64,000 bases of DNA from Stigmatella aurantiaca DW4/3-1 (lineage in GTDB: Bacteria > Myxococcota > Myxococcia > Myxococcales > Myxococcaceae): contig NC_014623.1 of the NCBI RefSeq assembly GCF_000165485.1, positions 9,442,893 to 9,506,892 on the forward strand, written 5' to 3'. This document shows positions 25,395-34,268 of this stretch, in pieces. A program made the position numbers and the translations under genes. Each line of letters begins with the position of its first letter. The stretch's first letter is position 1. The notes beneath the pieces were generated by a model. It saw only the letters and a list, made by a program, of their open reading frames with translations. It made no database searches and had not been told where the DNA came from.

Positions 25395-26291
25395 ATGGGC
25401 ATCAAACTCGGTGGTGTTGGCAACCTCTTCAAGGGCGGCGGCAAGATTCCGGACTTCAAGCCCAGCGCTCCCAAGCCGGACCTGAAGCCCAGCGCTCCCA
25501 AGCCGGACGCGAAGCCCCAGTTCACCCCACGCCCCGACATCAACGGCAAGCCTCAGCTCCCCAAGCCGGACGCGAAGCCTCAGTTCAGCCCCCGCCCTGA
25601 TATCAACGGCAACCTCCCCGACACGCGGCCGAACCTGAACCGCCCGAACTTCAACGGGCTGGACAACTTCAAGCCCAACGGGCTGAACAACCTCAAGCCC
25701 AACGGGCTGGGCAACGGCCTGGGCGCCGCGGGCGATGTGTTCGGCGGGCTTGCCCAGGGTGCCGCAGGTCTGGCCGGAGCCGGGCTCGATGCCGCCTCCA
25801 CGCTCGGCATGATGGGTCCGGGGCCCGTGATGGACCCGTACGCGGCCGGTGGCCTGCCCCCGGAGCTCGGCATGATGGGTCCGGGGCCCGTGATGGACCC
25901 GTATGCGGCCGGTGGCCTGCCCCCAGAGCTCGGCATGATGGGTCCGGGGCCCGTGATGGACCCGTACGCGGCCGGTGGCCTGCCTCCGGAGCTCGGCATG
26001 ATGGGTCCGGGGCCCGTGATGGACCCGTACGCGGCCGGTGGCCTGCCTCCGGCTGAGGCCATGGCCCCCACCGCTGGCGGCTTCGGAGGCCCCGCCGTGG
26101 ACGGCAGCGGCCAGTCCGGCTCGGGCCTGAGCGCCCTGCTGGACACAGTGGCCAACGCCGTCTCCACCGTGACCCAGGTGGCCGAGGCCGTGACGAGCCT
26201 CGTGGACCAAGCCAGCGGCGCGAACGCCCTGCCCACGCTGGCCAAGACCGTCGCAGAGGCCGTGAAGACCCCGCAGACCCTGGAGTTCTGA
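25395..26291 (+). CDS. Pro/Gly-rich repeat protein, function unknown
   Basis: The 298-residue protein is not recognised. Three parts are visible. Residues 1-105 are Pro/Lys/Asn-rich with repeated 'APKPDLKP' and 'PRPDINGK' units. Residues 137-219 contain four tandem copies of a 21-residue unit (LGMMGPGPVMDPYAAGGLPPE). Residues about 230-298 are an amphipathic Ala/Val-rich helix region (LLDTVANAVSTVTQVAEAVTSLV) that could oligomerise. There is no signal peptide. The sigma-54-type promoter upstream suggests induction by an enhancer-binding activator, perhaps during development or starvation. A structural or secreted adhesive role is possible but unproven. Confidence 0.75.
   Translation: MGIKLGGVGNLFKGGGKIPDFKPSAPKPDLKPSAPKPDAKPQFTPRPDINGKPQLPKPDAKPQFSPRPDINGNLPDTRPNLNRPNFNGLDNFKPNGLNNLKPNGLGNGLGAAGDVFGGLAQGAAGLAGAGLDAASTLGMMGPGPVMDPYAAGGLPPELGMMGPGPVMDPYAAGGLPPELGMMGPGPVMDPYAAGGLPPELGMMGPGPVMDPYAAGGLPPAEAMAPTAGGFGGPAVDGSGQSGSGLSALLDTVANAVSTVTQVAEAVTSLVDQASGANALPTLAKTVAEAVKTPQTLEF
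25803..26054 (+). repeat. Four tandem 63-bp coding repeats
   Basis: Four units in frame encode the same 21 residues and differ only at silent positions (for example GTACGCGG versus GTATGCGG). The last unit diverges at its final two codons. Such identity suggests recent expansion or ongoing homogenisation, so copy number may vary between strains. Confidence 0.9.
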
Positions 26292-27450: not shown

Positions 27451-30342
27451 TCACCCAGCCCCACGCGTCGTATCGGCTCGCGGGCCCTTGCGCGCACGGC
27501 GCCACCACCCCGTCAGGGCGTAGAGGCCCAAGGCTCCCCCCCCCAGCATCAGGCCGAGCGCGGTGCCCCCTGGCCGCGCGGCCTTCGCTTCGTTTGAAGG
27601 AACGGGGACCAGCGCCGCGTCCCCCATCACCCCGAGCCCCGCCCAGGCAGCCGCGGGCTGACCGTCCTCCCAGGCCTCGCGCTGGGCGGAACGCAAGGCC
27701 TGGGACACCCCCTGCCCGGAGGCCAAATGTCTGTAATAGCGCTCCAGGAGCCACGCGGCTTCGGCGTCGCGCAGGGGCCACAGGCTCGCCACCACCGCGC
27801 GGGCCCTCGCTTCGAAGAAGGCCCTCGCGAGGCTCAGCACCCCTTCTCCCGCCAGCAGCGTGCCGGACGCGCCCTGGCAACTGGAGAGCACCACCAGCGC
27901 ATCCCCCAGCCCCAGCCCCGTGATTTCCCGGGGCTGAAGCAGGCCGTCCTCCTGCTCCGCGCCTGGAGCCAACACCAGCGCGGAACGCTCGGGGGCGTCG
28001 ACGTCGACGACGGCGTGAGCGGCCACATGGAGGATGCGCACATCCTCCAACCGGGACGCCTTGAGGGCCTGCTCGGATGCGGCAGCACCCACCAGCAGCC
28101 GGGGCCTCACGACCGTGTCCTCCAGGGAGTCCTCCACGGTGTGCCCTTCGCGCCTTGCTTCGGGGAGCGAGCCCAGGTTCGCCATCTCCCCAAACACGCC
28201 GCCTCGCGCACTGGCCACCGCCGTCGCTGCGGCCCCGCGGTCGGGATCCGCCAGAACCAGGGCTTCTCCTCCCGGGGGGCGGACGGCCCGCTGCCTCCAG
28301 TGGTGCAGCAAGCTGGCGGAAGGCACCAGCGCGAGTTCGTACCGGGCGATCAATGGCGGCCCATCCGCCCGCTCCCGCAGCGCGGCGAAGGCCAGGTCGT
28401 GCAGCGGCCCATCCGGCACGAACAGCAGGCGGGACACGCCCGGGGGAAGCTCCCGCAGGGCGGGGGCGAGCAGTTGCGCGTACAGCGCGGTGGCGGCCCC
28501 GGCCTCCGAACCGTCCCGCCGCTCGATGAGGCCCGACAGGAGCGCCACCGCGGGACGCAGCCGTGCACGTTCGGGGAGGCGGTACGCGCGCGTGCCCTCG
28601 CGGGTCACGGCCAGCACCCACGCGCCCCCCGCTGGCACGCCCTGGAGGTCCTGAACCGCGCCCACGAGGAAGACGAGCAGCGCCTCCCCGGGTCCCAGGC
28701 CCCGCTCGGTCTGGGCCAATGAGGCGAACCGAACCTCGGCGTGACGGGGTGTCGGCCGCAGCTCGTGCTCCCGTCGCTCCAGCTCCTGGAGTTCGCCCAG
28801 CAGGCGCGTGCGCTCGGACGCGGACAGCTCCTTCTCCAGCAGCCGCCGCTGGGTGGCGGACAGGTCGCGCAGCACGCCGGCCCGCGACTCCTGGCGCTCC
28901 GGTGTGTCCTCTGCGGAAACAAGCGCCCGGGAAGCCACGAGCGCTTCGAACAACGTCCGCGCGCGCAGCCGCTCGCTCACCGCGAAGGCACGCTCCAGTG
29001 CCTCGCGGGACGGCAGGGCGGACGTCTCACCCGCCTCCAGCGTGCGGCCAGCGAGCCGGTGATAGTCATTGGCCCAGCCGGAAAACAACTCCGCCTGGCT
29101 GGAGGCGTCCTTCTGCAACTGGCGCAGGACCTCCACCGCGTCCAGGGCCCGCTCCGCCTGTCGAAGGGCCTCCGGCAGGGGCTTCGTGCGAAAGGCCACC
29201 ATCGAGCGTGCCCTCCACGCGGAGGCGAGATAGCGCGGGTTGTCGTGCTCGGCGGCCAGGGCCAGGGCCGCATCCGCGTCACGCTCGGCGGCGGCGGCAT
29301 CCACGCCCGCGAGCCGTTCCGCGCGCGTCCACAGACAGGCGATGCGCCGCTCGGGCAGCCCCGCGTCCCGGGCCAGGTCCAGACAGCGCTCCAGGTGTCC
29401 TTCCGCCTCGCTCCGCTCCTCTGGGCTGTCCCCCAGCAGCTCCGCCACGAGGCGCAGGGATTGGGCCTCGAAGGCCTTGCTCCCCGCGTTCTTCGCCGCC
29501 GCGAGCGCCTCCCTCGCGAGGCGCAACAGCTCCGGCCTGCCCCCCAGTTCGGGACGCTCCTCGCCGCGCCTCAGCGCGAGGTTCGCGAAGGCGAAGCGCA
29601 CGCGGGCCTCGGTGCCCACGTCGTGGGTGCTCCGTGCGAGTTCCGCGAGCCGCGCATAGGCATCCAGCGCCTCGTCGAAGCGTCCCAGGTTCGCGCTCAC
29701 GGACGCCAGGGGGGTCAGCAGTTGCTTCTTCACGCCGTCGCTGCCTCCCGGGAAGGCGAGCGCCTCCGCGCGCTTGAGCAGGCGATAGGCACGTCCCAGG
29801 TCCTGCCCCAGATCGGAGAGTTCGGCGGCTTCCAAGATGAGCGCGCGCACCTGGAGCTGAGCGTTGCCGGAGGCGCGGGCCACCTCTCCCACCCGCTGGA
29901 CCCACGTGTGCGCTTCCTCCGTCCTGCCCAGCACCCCCAGCACGTTGCGCAGGTTGATGCCGGCCATCACCTCGCCCTCCGCGTCCTCCAATCGCCGGAA
30001 CGCGAGGGCCGCGCTCCGGTAGGACGCCTCCGCCAGGCGCGGCTCGGAGAGCATCTCCAGGTGCCCCAGGACGAGCATGAGCCACGGGCGATCCGGATAA
30101 CTCGCGAGGAGGCCCCGCAGCCTGCGCCGAGCCTCCTCGCGCCGCGCCGGGGCCTGGGCCTCGCGAAAGAAACACATCGCCGTCTCCGAACCCTCCGGAT
30201 GGGCGACAAAGCCCTCCTCGCACCGGGCGAGCGCGGAAACCTCCGGGGCTTCGGCGGCGACCGCGAGGCCGTGAGGAATCAGCCCCCCGAGGAAGAGCCA
30301 TCCCAGACAAACCAGGCGCTGTCGCCAGCCGCGTCCCGACAC
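27451..30342 (-). CDS. Exported TPR-CHAT caspase-like protease
   Basis: Starting at a GTG one base after the preceding stop, the 963-residue protein has a signal or anchor (GWLFLGGLIPHGLAVAAEA) and about 500 residues of TPR-like helices. A CHAT domain follows with catalytic His in LHVAAHAVVD (about H776) and Cys in VVLSSCQGASG (about C822). A single transmembrane segment lies near residues 923-945 before a basic tail. CHAT proteins are caspase/separase-clan peptidases often activated by partners. With an N-terminal export signal and a C-terminal anchor, the protease would sit outside the inner membrane, unusual for CHAT. It ends a sigma/anti-sigma operon. Confidence 0.85.
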   Translation of the reverse strand: MSGRGWRQRLVCLGWLFLGGLIPHGLAVAAEAPEVSALARCEEGFVAHPEGSETAMCFFREAQAPARREEARRRLRGLLASYPDRPWLMLVLGHLEMLSEPRLAEASYRSAALAFRRLEDAEGEVMAGINLRNVLGVLGRTEEAHTWVQRVGEVARASGNAQLQVRALILEAAELSDLGQDLGRAYRLLKRAEALAFPGGSDGVKKQLLTPLASVSANLGRFDEALDAYARLAELARSTHDVGTEARVRFAFANLALRRGEERPELGGRPELLRLAREALAAAKNAGSKAFEAQSLRLVAELLGDSPEERSEAEGHLERCLDLARDAGLPERRIACLWTRAERLAGVDAAAAERDADAALALAAEHDNPRYLASAWRARSMVAFRTKPLPEALRQAERALDAVEVLRQLQKDASSQAELFSGWANDYHRLAGRTLEAGETSALPSREALERAFAVSERLRARTLFEALVASRALVSAEDTPERQESRAGVLRDLSATQRRLLEKELSASERTRLLGELQELERREHELRPTPRHAEVRFASLAQTERGLGPGEALLVFLVGAVQDLQGVPAGGAWVLAVTREGTRAYRLPERARLRPAVALLSGLIERRDGSEAGAATALYAQLLAPALRELPPGVSRLLFVPDGPLHDLAFAALRERADGPPLIARYELALVPSASLLHHWRQRAVRPPGGEALVLADPDRGAAATAVASARGGVFGEMANLGSLPEARREGHTVEDSLEDTVVRPRLLVGAAASEQALKASRLEDVRILHVAAHAVVDVDAPERSALVLAPGAEQEDGLLQPREITGLGLGDALVVLSSCQGASGTLLAGEGVLSLARAFFEARARAVVASLWPLRDAEAAWLLERYYRHLASGQGVSQALRSAQREAWEDGQPAAAWAGLGVMGDAALVPVPSNEAKAARPGGTALGLMLGGGALGLYALTGWWRRARKGPRADTTRGAG

Positions 30343-30343
30343 G

Positions 30344-30853
30344 TCAGTCCCGGATGAAGAGGTACGAGCACTCCAGCGACGTGGTGGGCTCCGGCGTGCC
30401 GCCTCGCGGGTCAATGGTGTTCGTCCTGGGAATCCGGCAGACGGGAGGCGGCTCGATCGACGGAGCCGTGCCGGTCCATCGTTCCAGCACCAGGACGCCC
30501 GCCGCCAGCGCTTCGGTGTTCGGCGGCAGCAGGAGCTGGGCGCGGACCCCGGCGGACGTTGGAGCCGTCGCGCTGAGCCGCAGCGGGAAGCCCTCGGTCA
30601 CCGGGCCGGTGATTTCCGCGAGCACCACGCCCCGGTCCGACAGGATGCGCAACGTCACCGTCAACGTGCCGCCCCGGCTCACACCCACGTCCATCACAGA
30701 AGCCACCACCGCGTCGTGCGCCGCGCCCGACACGGGCACCGTCGTCATCACCGTCATGGGAGGCGCGGCCTGCGCCGCCGCCGTGAGTCCCCACAGGAGC
30801 ACCATCGCCGCCACCGCACGCATCCATCCCCTCACTGCATTGAGTGTCTTCAT
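30344..30853 (-). CDS. Secreted protein of the CHAT operon, unknown function
   Basis: From the ATG at 30853 the 169-residue protein has a strong signal peptide (VLLWGLTAAAQA/AP) and a beta-rich domain (GGTLTVTLRILSDRGVVLAEI). Two Cys lie near the C-terminus (PPPVCRIPR and LECSYLFIRD). It is not recognised. The stop is one base from the GTG of the CHAT gene, so translation is probably coupled, and the product may be a partner, substrate or inhibitor of the CHAT protease in the periplasm. Confidence 0.7.
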   Translation of the reverse strand: MKTLNAVRGWMRAVAAMVLLWGLTAAAQAAPPMTVMTTVPVSGAAHDAVVASVMDVGVSRGGTLTVTLRILSDRGVVLAEITGPVTEGFPLRLSATAPTSAGVRAQLLLPPNTEALAAGVLVLERWTGTAPSIEPPPVCRIPRTNTIDPRGGTPEPTTSLECSYLFIRD

Positions 30854-30920
30854 CACAGCCACCTCTTCATTGTCATTGAATGAATCGCCCACCCACCCCG
30901 CACGGGCCTTTGCCGCATGC

Positions 30921-31631
30921 TCACTGCAAACGGTTCACGAACGTGCTGCTTCGCCGGACACCGCCATCCGGCAACCGTGCTTCGACCTGCCAGAGCACCC
31001 TCGCCCCCGAGGGCAGCTCCGCCAGCACTGAGGCCGGCACGGTGTACTCCCGCTGCTCCAGCCGCTCCACGCGGTGGAACACCTTCAAGTCCTCCGACGA
31101 CACCTGCACACTCCACTGCGTCGCCTGGGCCACACCCCTCCAACGCAACACGAAGCGGTCGCGAGGAAGCGCGGCGGCGTCCGGCACCACCGCGGTGATC
31201 GCCTCGGCCTCGCCCCCCCGGATCCGATCCGGATCCTCCCCCTGCTGCTGCTGCCGCAGCACCACGACCACCCCCACCAGGACCACCCACATCGCCGCCA
31301 TCGCGACCCATGCGGGACGGCCCCCCCACGAACGCTTCCCCCGCGCCTTGCGGTCCGTCAGCGACAGCACCTTCGCCGGTGCATCCGCCTTCGCAGCCGC
31401 CTGGGACATCGTCCGGGCCAGCCGCCAAGCCTGGGCCCACGCGGGATCCGCCGCGACGCGCTCGATGACCGCGCGGCGCTCCTCGGCCGGCAGGTCCTGC
31501 GTCACCGCACGCCAGACGCGTTCCGCGTCCACCGGTTCCCCTGCCGCCGCGTCCTCGTCGCGCAGCGCCTTCCGCAGCCGCTCCACGCCCGCGTCGTCGA
31601 TGGAGTCATCCTCGGGGCGGTGTTCGCTCAC
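30921..31631 (-). CDS. Anti-sigma factor-like single-pass membrane protein
   Basis: The 236-residue protein has an acidic N-terminal half (about 110 residues, cytoplasmic) and one transmembrane helix (VAMAAMWVVLVGVVVVL, about 108-124). A periplasmic beta-rich domain follows (FVLRWRGVAQATQWSVQV), resembling a fibronectin-like 'W..V..A..Y.V.V' fold. Its GTG start overlaps the stop of the sigma gene (GTGA), the classic sigma/anti-sigma coupling. It lacks the HxxxCxxC motif of zinc anti-sigma factors. It would hold the sigma factor at the membrane and release it upon an envelope signal. Confidence 0.75.
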   Translation of the reverse strand: MSEHRPEDDSIDDAGVERLRKALRDEDAAAGEPVDAERVWRAVTQDLPAEERRAVIERVAADPAWAQAWRLARTMSQAAAKADAPAKVLSLTDRKARGKRSWGGRPAWVAMAAMWVVLVGVVVVLRQQQQGEDPDRIRGGEAEAITAVVPDAAALPRDRFVLRWRGVAQATQWSVQVSSEDLKVFHRVERLEQREYTVPASVLAELPSGARVLWQVEARLPDGGVRRSSTFVNRLQ

Positions 31632-32179
31632 GGCGTGACTCCTTTCGTGGAGAGACAGGCGCGCAGGGCGCTGAGTCCACGGTAGATGAGGTTTTCGGTG
31701 CGCTTGCTCTCCCAGCCCAGCAGTTCCGCAGCCTCGTGGAGGGTGTGGCCCTGCAGGTGCAGCGTCACGGCGAGGCGGCGGTCCTGCATGAGCCCCTGGA
31801 GGCAGTCGCGCACGGCCCGGGCAATCTGCGCGGCGCCGGCCGACCGCTCCGGATCTCCCGGTGCCACGGGCTGCACGGGCGCCTGCTCCCCCTCCTCCAG
31901 CGCCACCTCCTTGCGTGCGTTCACCCGGCGCAGCTCATCGATGAGCGCTGTGTACGCCACCCGGTACAGGTACGCGGACGAGAGCGCCGCGTGTCCCGGG
32001 TCCCGCTTGCGCAGCTCCACCACCCGCATCATCGCCACCTGCAACAAGTCGTCCCGCCGGTCCGCGAGGGACGGAGGGCAGACGCTGGCGAGGGCCTTGT
32101 CCAGGTCGCGCCGCAGCGTTTCGAGCCCGGCGTCCGGCGAAGCCCCCGCGGAGTGGCCGTGTCGCATCTCCAAGTGCAT
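31628..32179 (-). CDS. ECF-type RNA polymerase sigma factor
   Basis: The product shows sigma region 2 (DRRDDLLQVAMMRVVELRKR, then AYLYRVAYTALIDELRRVN) and region 4 with a helix-turn-helix (LHLQGHTLHEAAELLGWESK, then RTENLIYRGLSALRACL). Regions 1 and 3 are absent, as in ECF sigmas. It is followed without a gap by its likely anti-sigma factor. The start is uncertain: I use ATG 32179 with GGAGGGG just upstream. An ORF open to 32284 would run into the terminator of the M23-like gene. It probably autoregulates this operon and controls unknown targets. Confidence 0.8.
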   Translation of the reverse strand: MHLEMRHGHSAGASPDAGLETLRRDLDKALASVCPPSLADRRDDLLQVAMMRVVELRKRDPGHAALSSAYLYRVAYTALIDELRRVNARKEVALEEGEQAPVQPVAPGDPERSAGAAQIARAVRDCLQGLMQDRRLAVTLHLQGHTLHEAAELLGWESKRTENLIYRGLSALRACLSTKGVTP

Positions 32180-32254
32180 CCCCTCCGGGAAAGGGAGCCG
32201 ATGGTCGTTGAATCCCTCCCAGGCGGCAAGGTGGCGTCGCGCTATCCGGGCAAA

Positions 32255-32278
32255 TCCCCCGAGACGGTGCTCGGGGGA
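32255..32278 (-). terminator. Rho-independent-like terminator of the M23-like gene
   Basis: TCCCCCGAG and CTCGGGGGA form a perfect nine-base stem with a six-base loop. On the minus strand it is followed by a short T-run (TTTG). It separates the M23-like gene from the sigma operon. Confidence 0.6.
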
Positions 32279-32289
32279 GGACACCCGTG

Positions 32290-34197
32290 TCAGGGCAGGT
32301 TGGCGTCCCAGGCGATCAACCGCACGTCACCGCCCGAGGTCAGACGCACGCCGGTGATGACGAAGCGGGCGCCCACGTAGGTGGAGGTGATGGCCATGCC
32401 GTCCAGGATGTCACCCGCGAGTTCCTGTCCAGTACGGTGCACCTGGCTGTTCGCGTCCACGTCCCACGTGAACACGCGCAGGTTGCCCCCCGAGTCGCGC
32501 ACCGGCGTCACCAGGTGTTGGCCCACCACCCGCGCCGCCTGCACGTCCAGCACGCCGCTGGCGTCCTCGTCGTCACGGCGCACGAGTTCGCCCGCGTCGG
32601 TGATGTCGAAGGAGATGTTGCGCAACACACCCGTGGGCAGCCGGGCGCTGACGACCACCACGTCCCGCACGTTGTTGCCGATGGTGAGGTTGCTGATGGC
32701 CACGTCCGCCACGTCGCCGCCCACGTCGTTGCCGCGCTTGTAGACGAGGCCCGTGGAGCCGATTTCCCAGGCCGTGACGCTCAGCTTGCCCGCCGGGGTA
32801 CGCACCGCGGTGACGACGCCCTTGAAATAGCCCGTGTCCCCCGCGACGCGGCCGAAGGCGACGGGCGCGAGCGAGACATGGGTGGCTTCCTCGCCGAAGC
32901 CGTTGCCCCGCCGGGTGATCGTGTCCAGGCTGGACGAGGTCTCCCAGGTGCTGACCTTCAAGCGGCCCGCGGAATCCCGGACGGCGCTCACCACGCCCAG
33001 GCTTCCGCCCGGAATGGGCGCAAGCGCCATCTGGCTGGACACCACGTCACCGCCCGCCTCCGCCTGCCGGGAGAAGAGGCCGGTGGCTGATACGCGCCAC
33101 GCGATGAGCTTGAGCTTGCCGTCGGCGGCCCGCGCGGCCGTCACCACGTCGCGACCCAGGCCGGGGTTCGCGATCGACACGTAGGTGGAAGCGTCCGGGG
33201 TGGTGATGCCGGAGAGCTTCGTGAAGGTACCGTCCCCGGCGAGCCGCCAGGAGCCCATCACGAGCCGGCCGGAGATGTCGCGCGTGGCGCTTACCACCGT
33301 GTCGCCCGAGGACGCCAGCGCAACCTCCATCGCCGCGTCACCGGTGATGGAGCCCCGGCGCAGCAGGGGGTCGGGGTGGATGGCGGAGGGGAACTGGTTC
33401 AGCGCTTCGGAGCGCAGCGGAACGAAATCGAGCGACGAGTCGTAGTTGACCGCCCCGTCCTTCTGCCAGGCCTGCGAGAAGGGGAGCGGGAGGGAATTGC
33501 CCATCGTCGTCTCGCTGGTCATCGGTTGCAGGTGCACGTGCAGGTGCGGGTTCGACGAAGCGCCGGAGCTGCCCACGCGGCCGATGAACTGTCCCCGCTT
33601 CACGAAGGCCCGCTGCGTGGCGGGCACCATCACCTCGCGGGGCAGGTCGCCCACACGGTCCTCCGCGTCCGCCACGTAGGTGTTGTTGAAGGGGCACAGC
33701 GACTCCGGGATGCTGCCCGGCTGCAGGTGCGCGTAGAGGATGATCTTCCCGTCGTTCGTGCGGATGTTCAGGTGGTTGCCCGAACGCGGGATAATGGGCG
33801 GATTCGCGGTGCGGCCCGGGTGAGGCACGTCGTCCCCTCCGTGCACGGCCGGCTTGAGTCCCTCGGGGGCATTGCGCCAACAGGTCAGCACCTCGCCGTC
33901 CGCGATGGCGGTGACGGGCAGTCCGTAGATGACCCAATCGGAGTTCTTGGGGTTCACGGCGTAGTCCGCGAAGGGAATCTTCACGCGGGTGAACCGGCGC
34001 TCGGTGGCGTCGAAGCGCACGGCACTGAGGTCGCGGTTCTCAGTGCCAGAGTGGTCGCTGGAGATCCACCAGTGACTGCCCTCCGGAAGGTCCGCGCTGC
34101 TGCCGGGAAAGGCGTAGGTCTGGGCGGAAGCACTGACGCTGACGGTGGCGACGGCCACGGCGGTAAGCCGGACGGCGGAACGAAGACGGGAAGACAT
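32290..34197 (-). CDS. Secreted M23-like protein with C-terminal beta-propeller
   Basis: From ATG 34197 (AGGAG upstream) the 635-residue protein has a signal peptide (VSVSASA/QT), an M23 (LytM)-like domain at about 85-225, and about 380 residues of repeating 'VVSAVRDSAGRLKVSTWE' units, likely a beta-propeller. The M23 core keeps YAHLQPGS (H157) and SNPHLHVHL (H219, H221). However, the first HxxxD zinc motif expected before GLPVTAIADG is missing, replaced by NPKNSD. It may be a degenerate peptidase that binds rather than cuts peptidoglycan. Its own terminator separates it from the sigma operon downstream. Confidence 0.7.
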   Translation of the reverse strand: MSSRLRSAVRLTAVAVATVSVSASAQTYAFPGSSADLPEGSHWWISSDHSGTENRDLSAVRFDATERRFTRVKIPFADYAVNPKNSDWVIYGLPVTAIADGEVLTCWRNAPEGLKPAVHGGDDVPHPGRTANPPIIPRSGNHLNIRTNDGKIILYAHLQPGSIPESLCPFNNTYVADAEDRVGDLPREVMVPATQRAFVKRGQFIGRVGSSGASSNPHLHVHLQPMTSETTMGNSLPLPFSQAWQKDGAVNYDSSLDFVPLRSEALNQFPSAIHPDPLLRRGSITGDAAMEVALASSGDTVVSATRDISGRLVMGSWRLAGDGTFTKLSGITTPDASTYVSIANPGLGRDVVTAARAADGKLKLIAWRVSATGLFSRQAEAGGDVVSSQMALAPIPGGSLGVVSAVRDSAGRLKVSTWETSSSLDTITRRGNGFGEEATHVSLAPVAFGRVAGDTGYFKGVVTAVRTPAGKLSVTAWEIGSTGLVYKRGNDVGGDVADVAISNLTIGNNVRDVVVVSARLPTGVLRNISFDITDAGELVRRDDEDASGVLDVQAARVVGQHLVTPVRDSGGNLRVFTWDVDANSQVHRTGQELAGDILDGMAITSTYVGARFVITGVRLTSGGDVRLIAWDANLP

Positions 34198-34268
34198 GGG
34201 CTGCTCCTTGGATGGGGGCGCTCGTTTCGCGCCTGCCCCCACCCAACGAAATGACCCATTTTTTCTCC

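Follow-up and report, generated by a model that had tools for sequence, protein, structure and literature searches.

The minus strand of the analysed window (a stretch of 64,000 nucleotides from Stigmatella aurantiaca DW4/3-1) carries four genes between positions 27451 and 32179. They encode, in the order of transcription, an ECF sigma factor, a single-pass anti-sigma factor, a small secreted protein and a TPR-CHAT protein; all features of these genes given below lie on the minus strand. The sigma and anti-sigma genes overlap by 4 nt, as they do in 34 of the 38 loci measured, and a single nucleotide separates the small gene from the CHAT gene. An earlier reading made from the sequence only had described all junctions as overlaps or one-base gaps. 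This holds for these two, but the anti-sigma and small genes are 67 nt apart. Directly upstream of the sigma gene lies a gene for an M23-peptidase protein (32290-34260). Several relatives retain it but others lack it, so it probably does not belong to the unit. The region between the two (32180-32290) contains a block, TTC(G)AACGAC..TCGGC, conserved between the window and Corallococcus, which is a possible regulatory element. We looked for an ECF promoter by aligning the upstream sequences of the window and Corallococcus, and no clear -35/-10 pair could be drawn from the alignment. Elsewhere in the window, positions 25395-26291 encode a protein in which GPVMDPYAAGGLPPE recurs in four near-identical repeats, alongside proline-rich PKPDAKP units.

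The sigma gene (31628..32173) probably starts at the TTG at 32173, since the ATG at 32179, taken as the start in the sequence-only reading, is out of frame in Corallococcus. The TTG lies after a GGAGG and its position is common to the window and Corallococcus; the reading frame itself is open to 32284. In profile searches the protein matched TIGR02937 (6e-15), and Pfam recognised Sigma70_r2 (PF04542, 1.8e-5) and Sigma70_r4_2 (PF08281, 4.5e-6), both above the cut-off. With regions 2 and 4_2 only, and with an adjoining anti-sigma gene, it has the make-up of an ECF sigma factor. Three cysteines (C34, C126 and C175, counted from the ATG at 32179) are invariant in 39/39 homologues, although the protein is cytoplasmic.

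The anti-sigma gene (30921..31631) encodes a protein of 236 aa with a degenerate ZAS domain, one transmembrane segment (aa 107-125) and a C-terminal extracytoplasmic domain, and has no match in Pfam. The zinc motif HxxxCxxC is absent and R58, D62 and W65 stand in place of the zinc ligands, in agreement with the earlier description of a single-pass anti-sigma factor without this motif. Distant homologues (L057, L061 and L062) keep HxxxCxxC at the aligned place, which suggests that the window protein is probably a relative of zinc anti-sigma factors that lost its zinc. About 12 residues outside the transmembrane segment, in a gap-rich linker of variable length, Arg138 (codon 31218..31220) is invariant in all 39 anti-sigma proteins and is followed by glycine in 37 of them. 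A site-1 cut would be expected in this region, and Arg138-Gly139 is a candidate cleavage site that might be tied to the specificity of the CHAT protein. The invariant arginine may instead have a structural role.

The small gene (30344..30853) encodes 169 aa with a hydrophobic N-terminus and two cysteines that are invariant in 36/36 sequences. The protein is predicted to be a beta-sandwich. The fold search gave no match at E<=0.001 and the better-supported matches were jelly-roll or CBM-like, with TM about 0.3-0.4; as these matches are weak, we claim only a beta-sandwich.

The last gene (27451..30342, GTG start) encodes the TPR-CHAT protein of 963 aa. Pfam recognised the CHAT domain (PF12770) at 3.2e-55 and 188 bits, against a cut-off of 24, and gave a weak TPR match. 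The histidine and cysteine of a caspase-like dyad, already pointed out from the sequence, correspond to His776 (codon 28015..28017, motif HVAAHA) and Cys822 (codon 27877..27879, motif LSSCQG). They are kept in 43/44 and 44/44 homologues of this split form, respectively, and the catalytic histidine is lost in the distant homologue L053. By profile and dyad the protein belongs to the CHAT caspase-like peptidases and would presumably be proteolytic. A PDB sequence search returned weak TPR matches only. Among the PADLOC models, BovA and TPR matched the CHAT protein weakly (E 2e-4), and no model matched the remaining genes of the operon. In the AlphaFold2 (AF2) model, built with 6 sequences, the TPR superhelix (aa 37-527) is confidently predicted. 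The CHAT part has a pLDDT of 20-50, so the model was dropped as a test of the catalytic site and no fold search was run on that part.

The topology of the TPR-CHAT protein was derived from hydropathy and conservation in 45 CHAT proteins, the window protein included. Its N-terminal signal sequence (30253..30342, aa 1-30) has an AVA-A type site, and the C-terminal membrane helix with the start of a basic tail (27493..27555) spans about aa 930-950. A hydrophobic, signal-like N-terminus was seen in nearly all of the 45 proteins as extracted; the one from L054 has a signal-like start, with a lipobox-like sequence, from an upstream start codon. The C-terminal hydrophobic helix followed by basic residues is present in all but four; contig ends truncate two of these, and the other two have longer tails beyond the aligned helix. 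Both features are kept down to 34% identity. Every protein (45/45) has C41 and C57, while C320 and C336 are jointly present in 39 homologues and jointly absent in 6. In the AF2 model the latter two occupy mirror positions in one helical hairpin, at about the same distance from its turn. These paired cysteines, like the two of the small protein, fit an oxidising extracytoplasmic compartment. MYXO-CTERM sorting of the CHAT protein was considered and rejected, as no NCBIfam model of C-terminal sorting matched. A cytoplasmic location was likewise dropped. The conserved signal, the C-terminal anchor, the paired cysteines and the topology of fused relatives (see below) argue for a location outside, as the sequence-only reading had proposed, and the predicted extracytoplasmic, membrane-anchored state is well supported.

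Export alone does not make this protein special. The Stigmatella genome (10,260,756 bases) contains 13 CHAT domains above the cut-off, and at least 9 of the 11 other full CHAT proteins read have a signal-like N-terminus, two having uncertain starts. The earlier view of an exported CHAT protein as an exception among mainly cytoplasmic systems thus does not hold for this genome. The other exported TPR-CHAT proteins resemble the window protein in the signal-like N-terminus, the TPR region and the dyad. They differ in the motif around the dyad (HLATHGFF...SACDTG), have no ECF pair directly beside them and show no C-terminal transmembrane helix in the termini read. Among the CHAT places of the genome, a sigma domain is found directly upstream only in the window and at C1:2716056. 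For the CHAT gene at C1:904455 the sigma gene is about 4 kb upstream, with other genes between. We also observed a signal-bearing CHAT gene that has another ECF sigma gene and a gene for an HxxxCxxC-type anti-sigma factor upstream of it, at about 1.5-2.6 kb (L108 1707-7523; G000:C1 about 899700-905500), with genes for a secreted protein and a methyltransferase-like protein lying between this pair and the CHAT gene.

We searched 96 Myxococcaceae genomes and more distant families, and gene order was read by tblastn of the four window proteins on the DNA around the CHAT relatives; all counts refer to related genomes and not to independent events. The CHAT protein has full-length relatives, at 57-94% identity, in Corallococcus-like and other genera; some of them came out of the search in two pieces. 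The sequence-only reading had suggested looking for the same four-gene order in other myxobacteria, and it was found at 34 Myxococcaceae loci besides the window. Moreover, the anti-sigma factor and an intact CHAT protein occur in exactly the same 39 of the 96 family genomes, the other 57 having neither intact. Judged by this orthologous order and exact co-occurrence, the arrangement is not due to chance, and the proposed four-gene operon is real and conserved. It is present in only 2/7 genomes of the genus and is therefore being lost or has been patchily acquired. One genome of the genus (G038, L069 8024-8419) contains a decayed remnant of the CHAT gene, and its sigma and anti-sigma genes are gone.

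CHAT relatives in the more distant families have 33-38% identity, and their surroundings vary. The order at L057 is sigma, anti-sigma and CHAT, with the small gene absent and the last two genes overlapping by 4 nt. At L052, inspection of the sequence showed sigma, anti-sigma, a secreted protein and CHAT; between this secreted protein and the small one there is a weak similarity (25% identity, E 3e-4). A paralogous locus (L064) has the small and CHAT genes without the sigma and anti-sigma genes, a lipoprotein gene precedes CHAT at L056, and tblastn on the flanking DNA of L053-L056 and L060 found no adjacent sigma or anti-sigma match. The CHAT protein can therefore exist without the sigma pair. 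A separate observation concerns Corallococcus praedator (G023:C737, L095 8061-18060), where the CHAT gene is followed by a two-gene antisense cassette encoding 873 and 315 aa, with lower GC3. Cassette and CHAT 3′ end recur together as tandem copies with a period of about 4,440 bp. The CHAT C-terminus is restored by the first of the extra copies, and the last one is truncated into another gene. The pattern resembles an insertion that has duplicated the end of its target.

The same Stigmatella genome encodes a related system in fused form. At C1:2713596-2716526, an ECF sigma gene overlaps through ATGA with a gene for a 977-aa protein that combines zf-HC2 (1.6e-9), a membrane helix, TPR and CHAT (5.5e-20), and a gene for a secreted protein of 172 aa follows. 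Relatives of this fusion were found in 67/195 genomes of the phylum, often several in each, with scoring confined to the best few candidates of every genome; among large Myxococcaceae genomes, most have it. Counting the query together with the 42 fusion proteins read, 43/43 keep the CHAT dyad and 42-43/43 keep four further cysteines; the zinc ligands are present in 35/43, the rest being mostly without an aligned N-terminus. All zinc-motif fusions read with their flanks have an ECF gene just upstream. A plasmid search with the fusion protein gave no match. Because the zinc anti-sigma domain is cytoplasmic and one membrane helix follows it, the TPR-CHAT part of the fusion must lie outside, which supports the same location for the split form. 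The split and fused forms may have been joined independently, since the two families differ in CHAT motifs and in the type of anti-sigma factor.

We propose that the TPR-CHAT protein is the extracytoplasmic sensor and protease of a membrane-spanning ECF sigma unit and cuts the anti-sigma factor, and put the probability of this reading at about 0.5. The single-pass anti-sigma factor would hold the sigma factor, and the exported TPR-CHAT protein, anchored by its C-terminal helix, would face the periplasm alongside the C-terminal domain of the anti-sigma factor. A ligand would act on the TPR superhelix and make the CHAT domain active; the small beta-sandwich protein may present this ligand or limit it. 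CHAT would then cut the anti-sigma factor just outside the membrane, with Arg138-Gly139 as the candidate site, and intramembrane and cytoplasmic proteolysis would free the sigma factor, as DegS, RseP and ClpXP do on RseA. In this scheme we infer the proteolytic activity, the substrate, the cleavage site, the sensing of a ligand, the nature of the signal and the regulon. Against it speak the loss of the catalytic histidine in L053, the CHAT proteins found without a sigma and anti-sigma pair, and the last place of CHAT in the operon, where an effector might stand.

According to the sequence-only reading, the anti-sigma factor itself would sense an envelope stress or a self/non-self signal and the sigma factor would induce the operon. 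The exported CHAT protein would come downstream, as an effector that works on envelope or foreign proteins, and the small protein would serve as a regulator or a substrate. The CHAT and small genes do come after the sigma and anti-sigma genes, and pairs such as small plus CHAT at L064, or lipoprotein plus CHAT at L056, would suit an effector. In the sister family, however, CHAT is physically part of the anti-sigma factor, which a merely induced effector would not need. The fusions beside ECF genes place CHAT inside the signalling step and favour the protease reading, so that a downstream caspase-like response is not supported as stated and we regard it as less likely. Somewhat less probable still is a sensor that does not cut: the TPR-CHAT protein would bind a ligand and pull on or shield the ectodomain of the anti-sigma factor in the manner of RseB, leaving the cut to another protease. 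The long TPR superhelix and the histidine lost in L053 agree with this, but the retention of the dyad in 43/44 split and 43/43 fused homologues is unlike a scaffold. That an exported housekeeping CHAT protein lies beside the ECF pair by coincidence, as the many exported CHAT proteins far from ECF genes in Stigmatella might suggest, is very improbable given the perfect co-occurrence, the conserved order and the fusions.

The sensor and protease reading may extend beyond this operon. Myxobacterial TPR-CHAT proteins outside the inner membrane could be the sensors and first-cut proteases of ECF pathways, both in the split form described here and in the fused form, present in multiple copies in most large Myxococcaceae genomes; we hold this broader proposal tentatively, at slightly under even odds. 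For many myxobacterial ECF pathways it supplies a concrete hypothesis of signal sensing. If true, caspase-like proteases would also be signal-transducing proteases of the envelope, beyond their roles as death effectors or CRISPR accessories.

In the literature searched we found no description of the fused or the split operon, and three known systems can be compared with them. ECF54 sigma factors resemble the window operon in the proposed control by a protease with a CHAT protein as gene neighbour: a review (PMC8999054) mentions CHAT, subtilase and carboxypeptidase neighbours as possible proteolytic regulators. They are described as lacking an anti-sigma factor, whereas the window operon has one. 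The control of RpoE by RseA, DegS and RseP (PMC8103513) shares with it a single-pass anti-sigma factor with an extracytoplasmic domain and a membrane-anchored periplasmic protein with protease features. DegS, however, is a serine PDZ protease encoded elsewhere, whereas the candidate here, a caspase-like cysteine protein, shares its operon with the anti-sigma factor or is fused to it. There is also a likeness in logic to the type III-E Craspase, in which the TPR-CHAT protein Csx29 cleaves Csx30, an inhibitor of the ECF-like CASP-sigma (PMC10028731). Membership of the window operon in this system was dropped, as the CHAT protein scored 13.1 bits with the Csx29 model against a cut-off of 300 and no cas gene was matched among the seven ORFs scanned at the locus. 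In both cases a TPR-CHAT protein is encoded with an ECF-like sigma factor and its inhibitor, but the Craspase protease is cytoplasmic and RNA-guided by Cas7-11, while the window protein is predicted to be exported and membrane-anchored and its partner is a membrane anti-sigma factor. The precedent shows that an ECF-like sigma factor can be relieved when a TPR-CHAT protease cuts its inhibitor. Craspase is a cytoplasmic analogue of the window system and, if the proposed reading is true, its logic would gain an extracytoplasmic counterpart.
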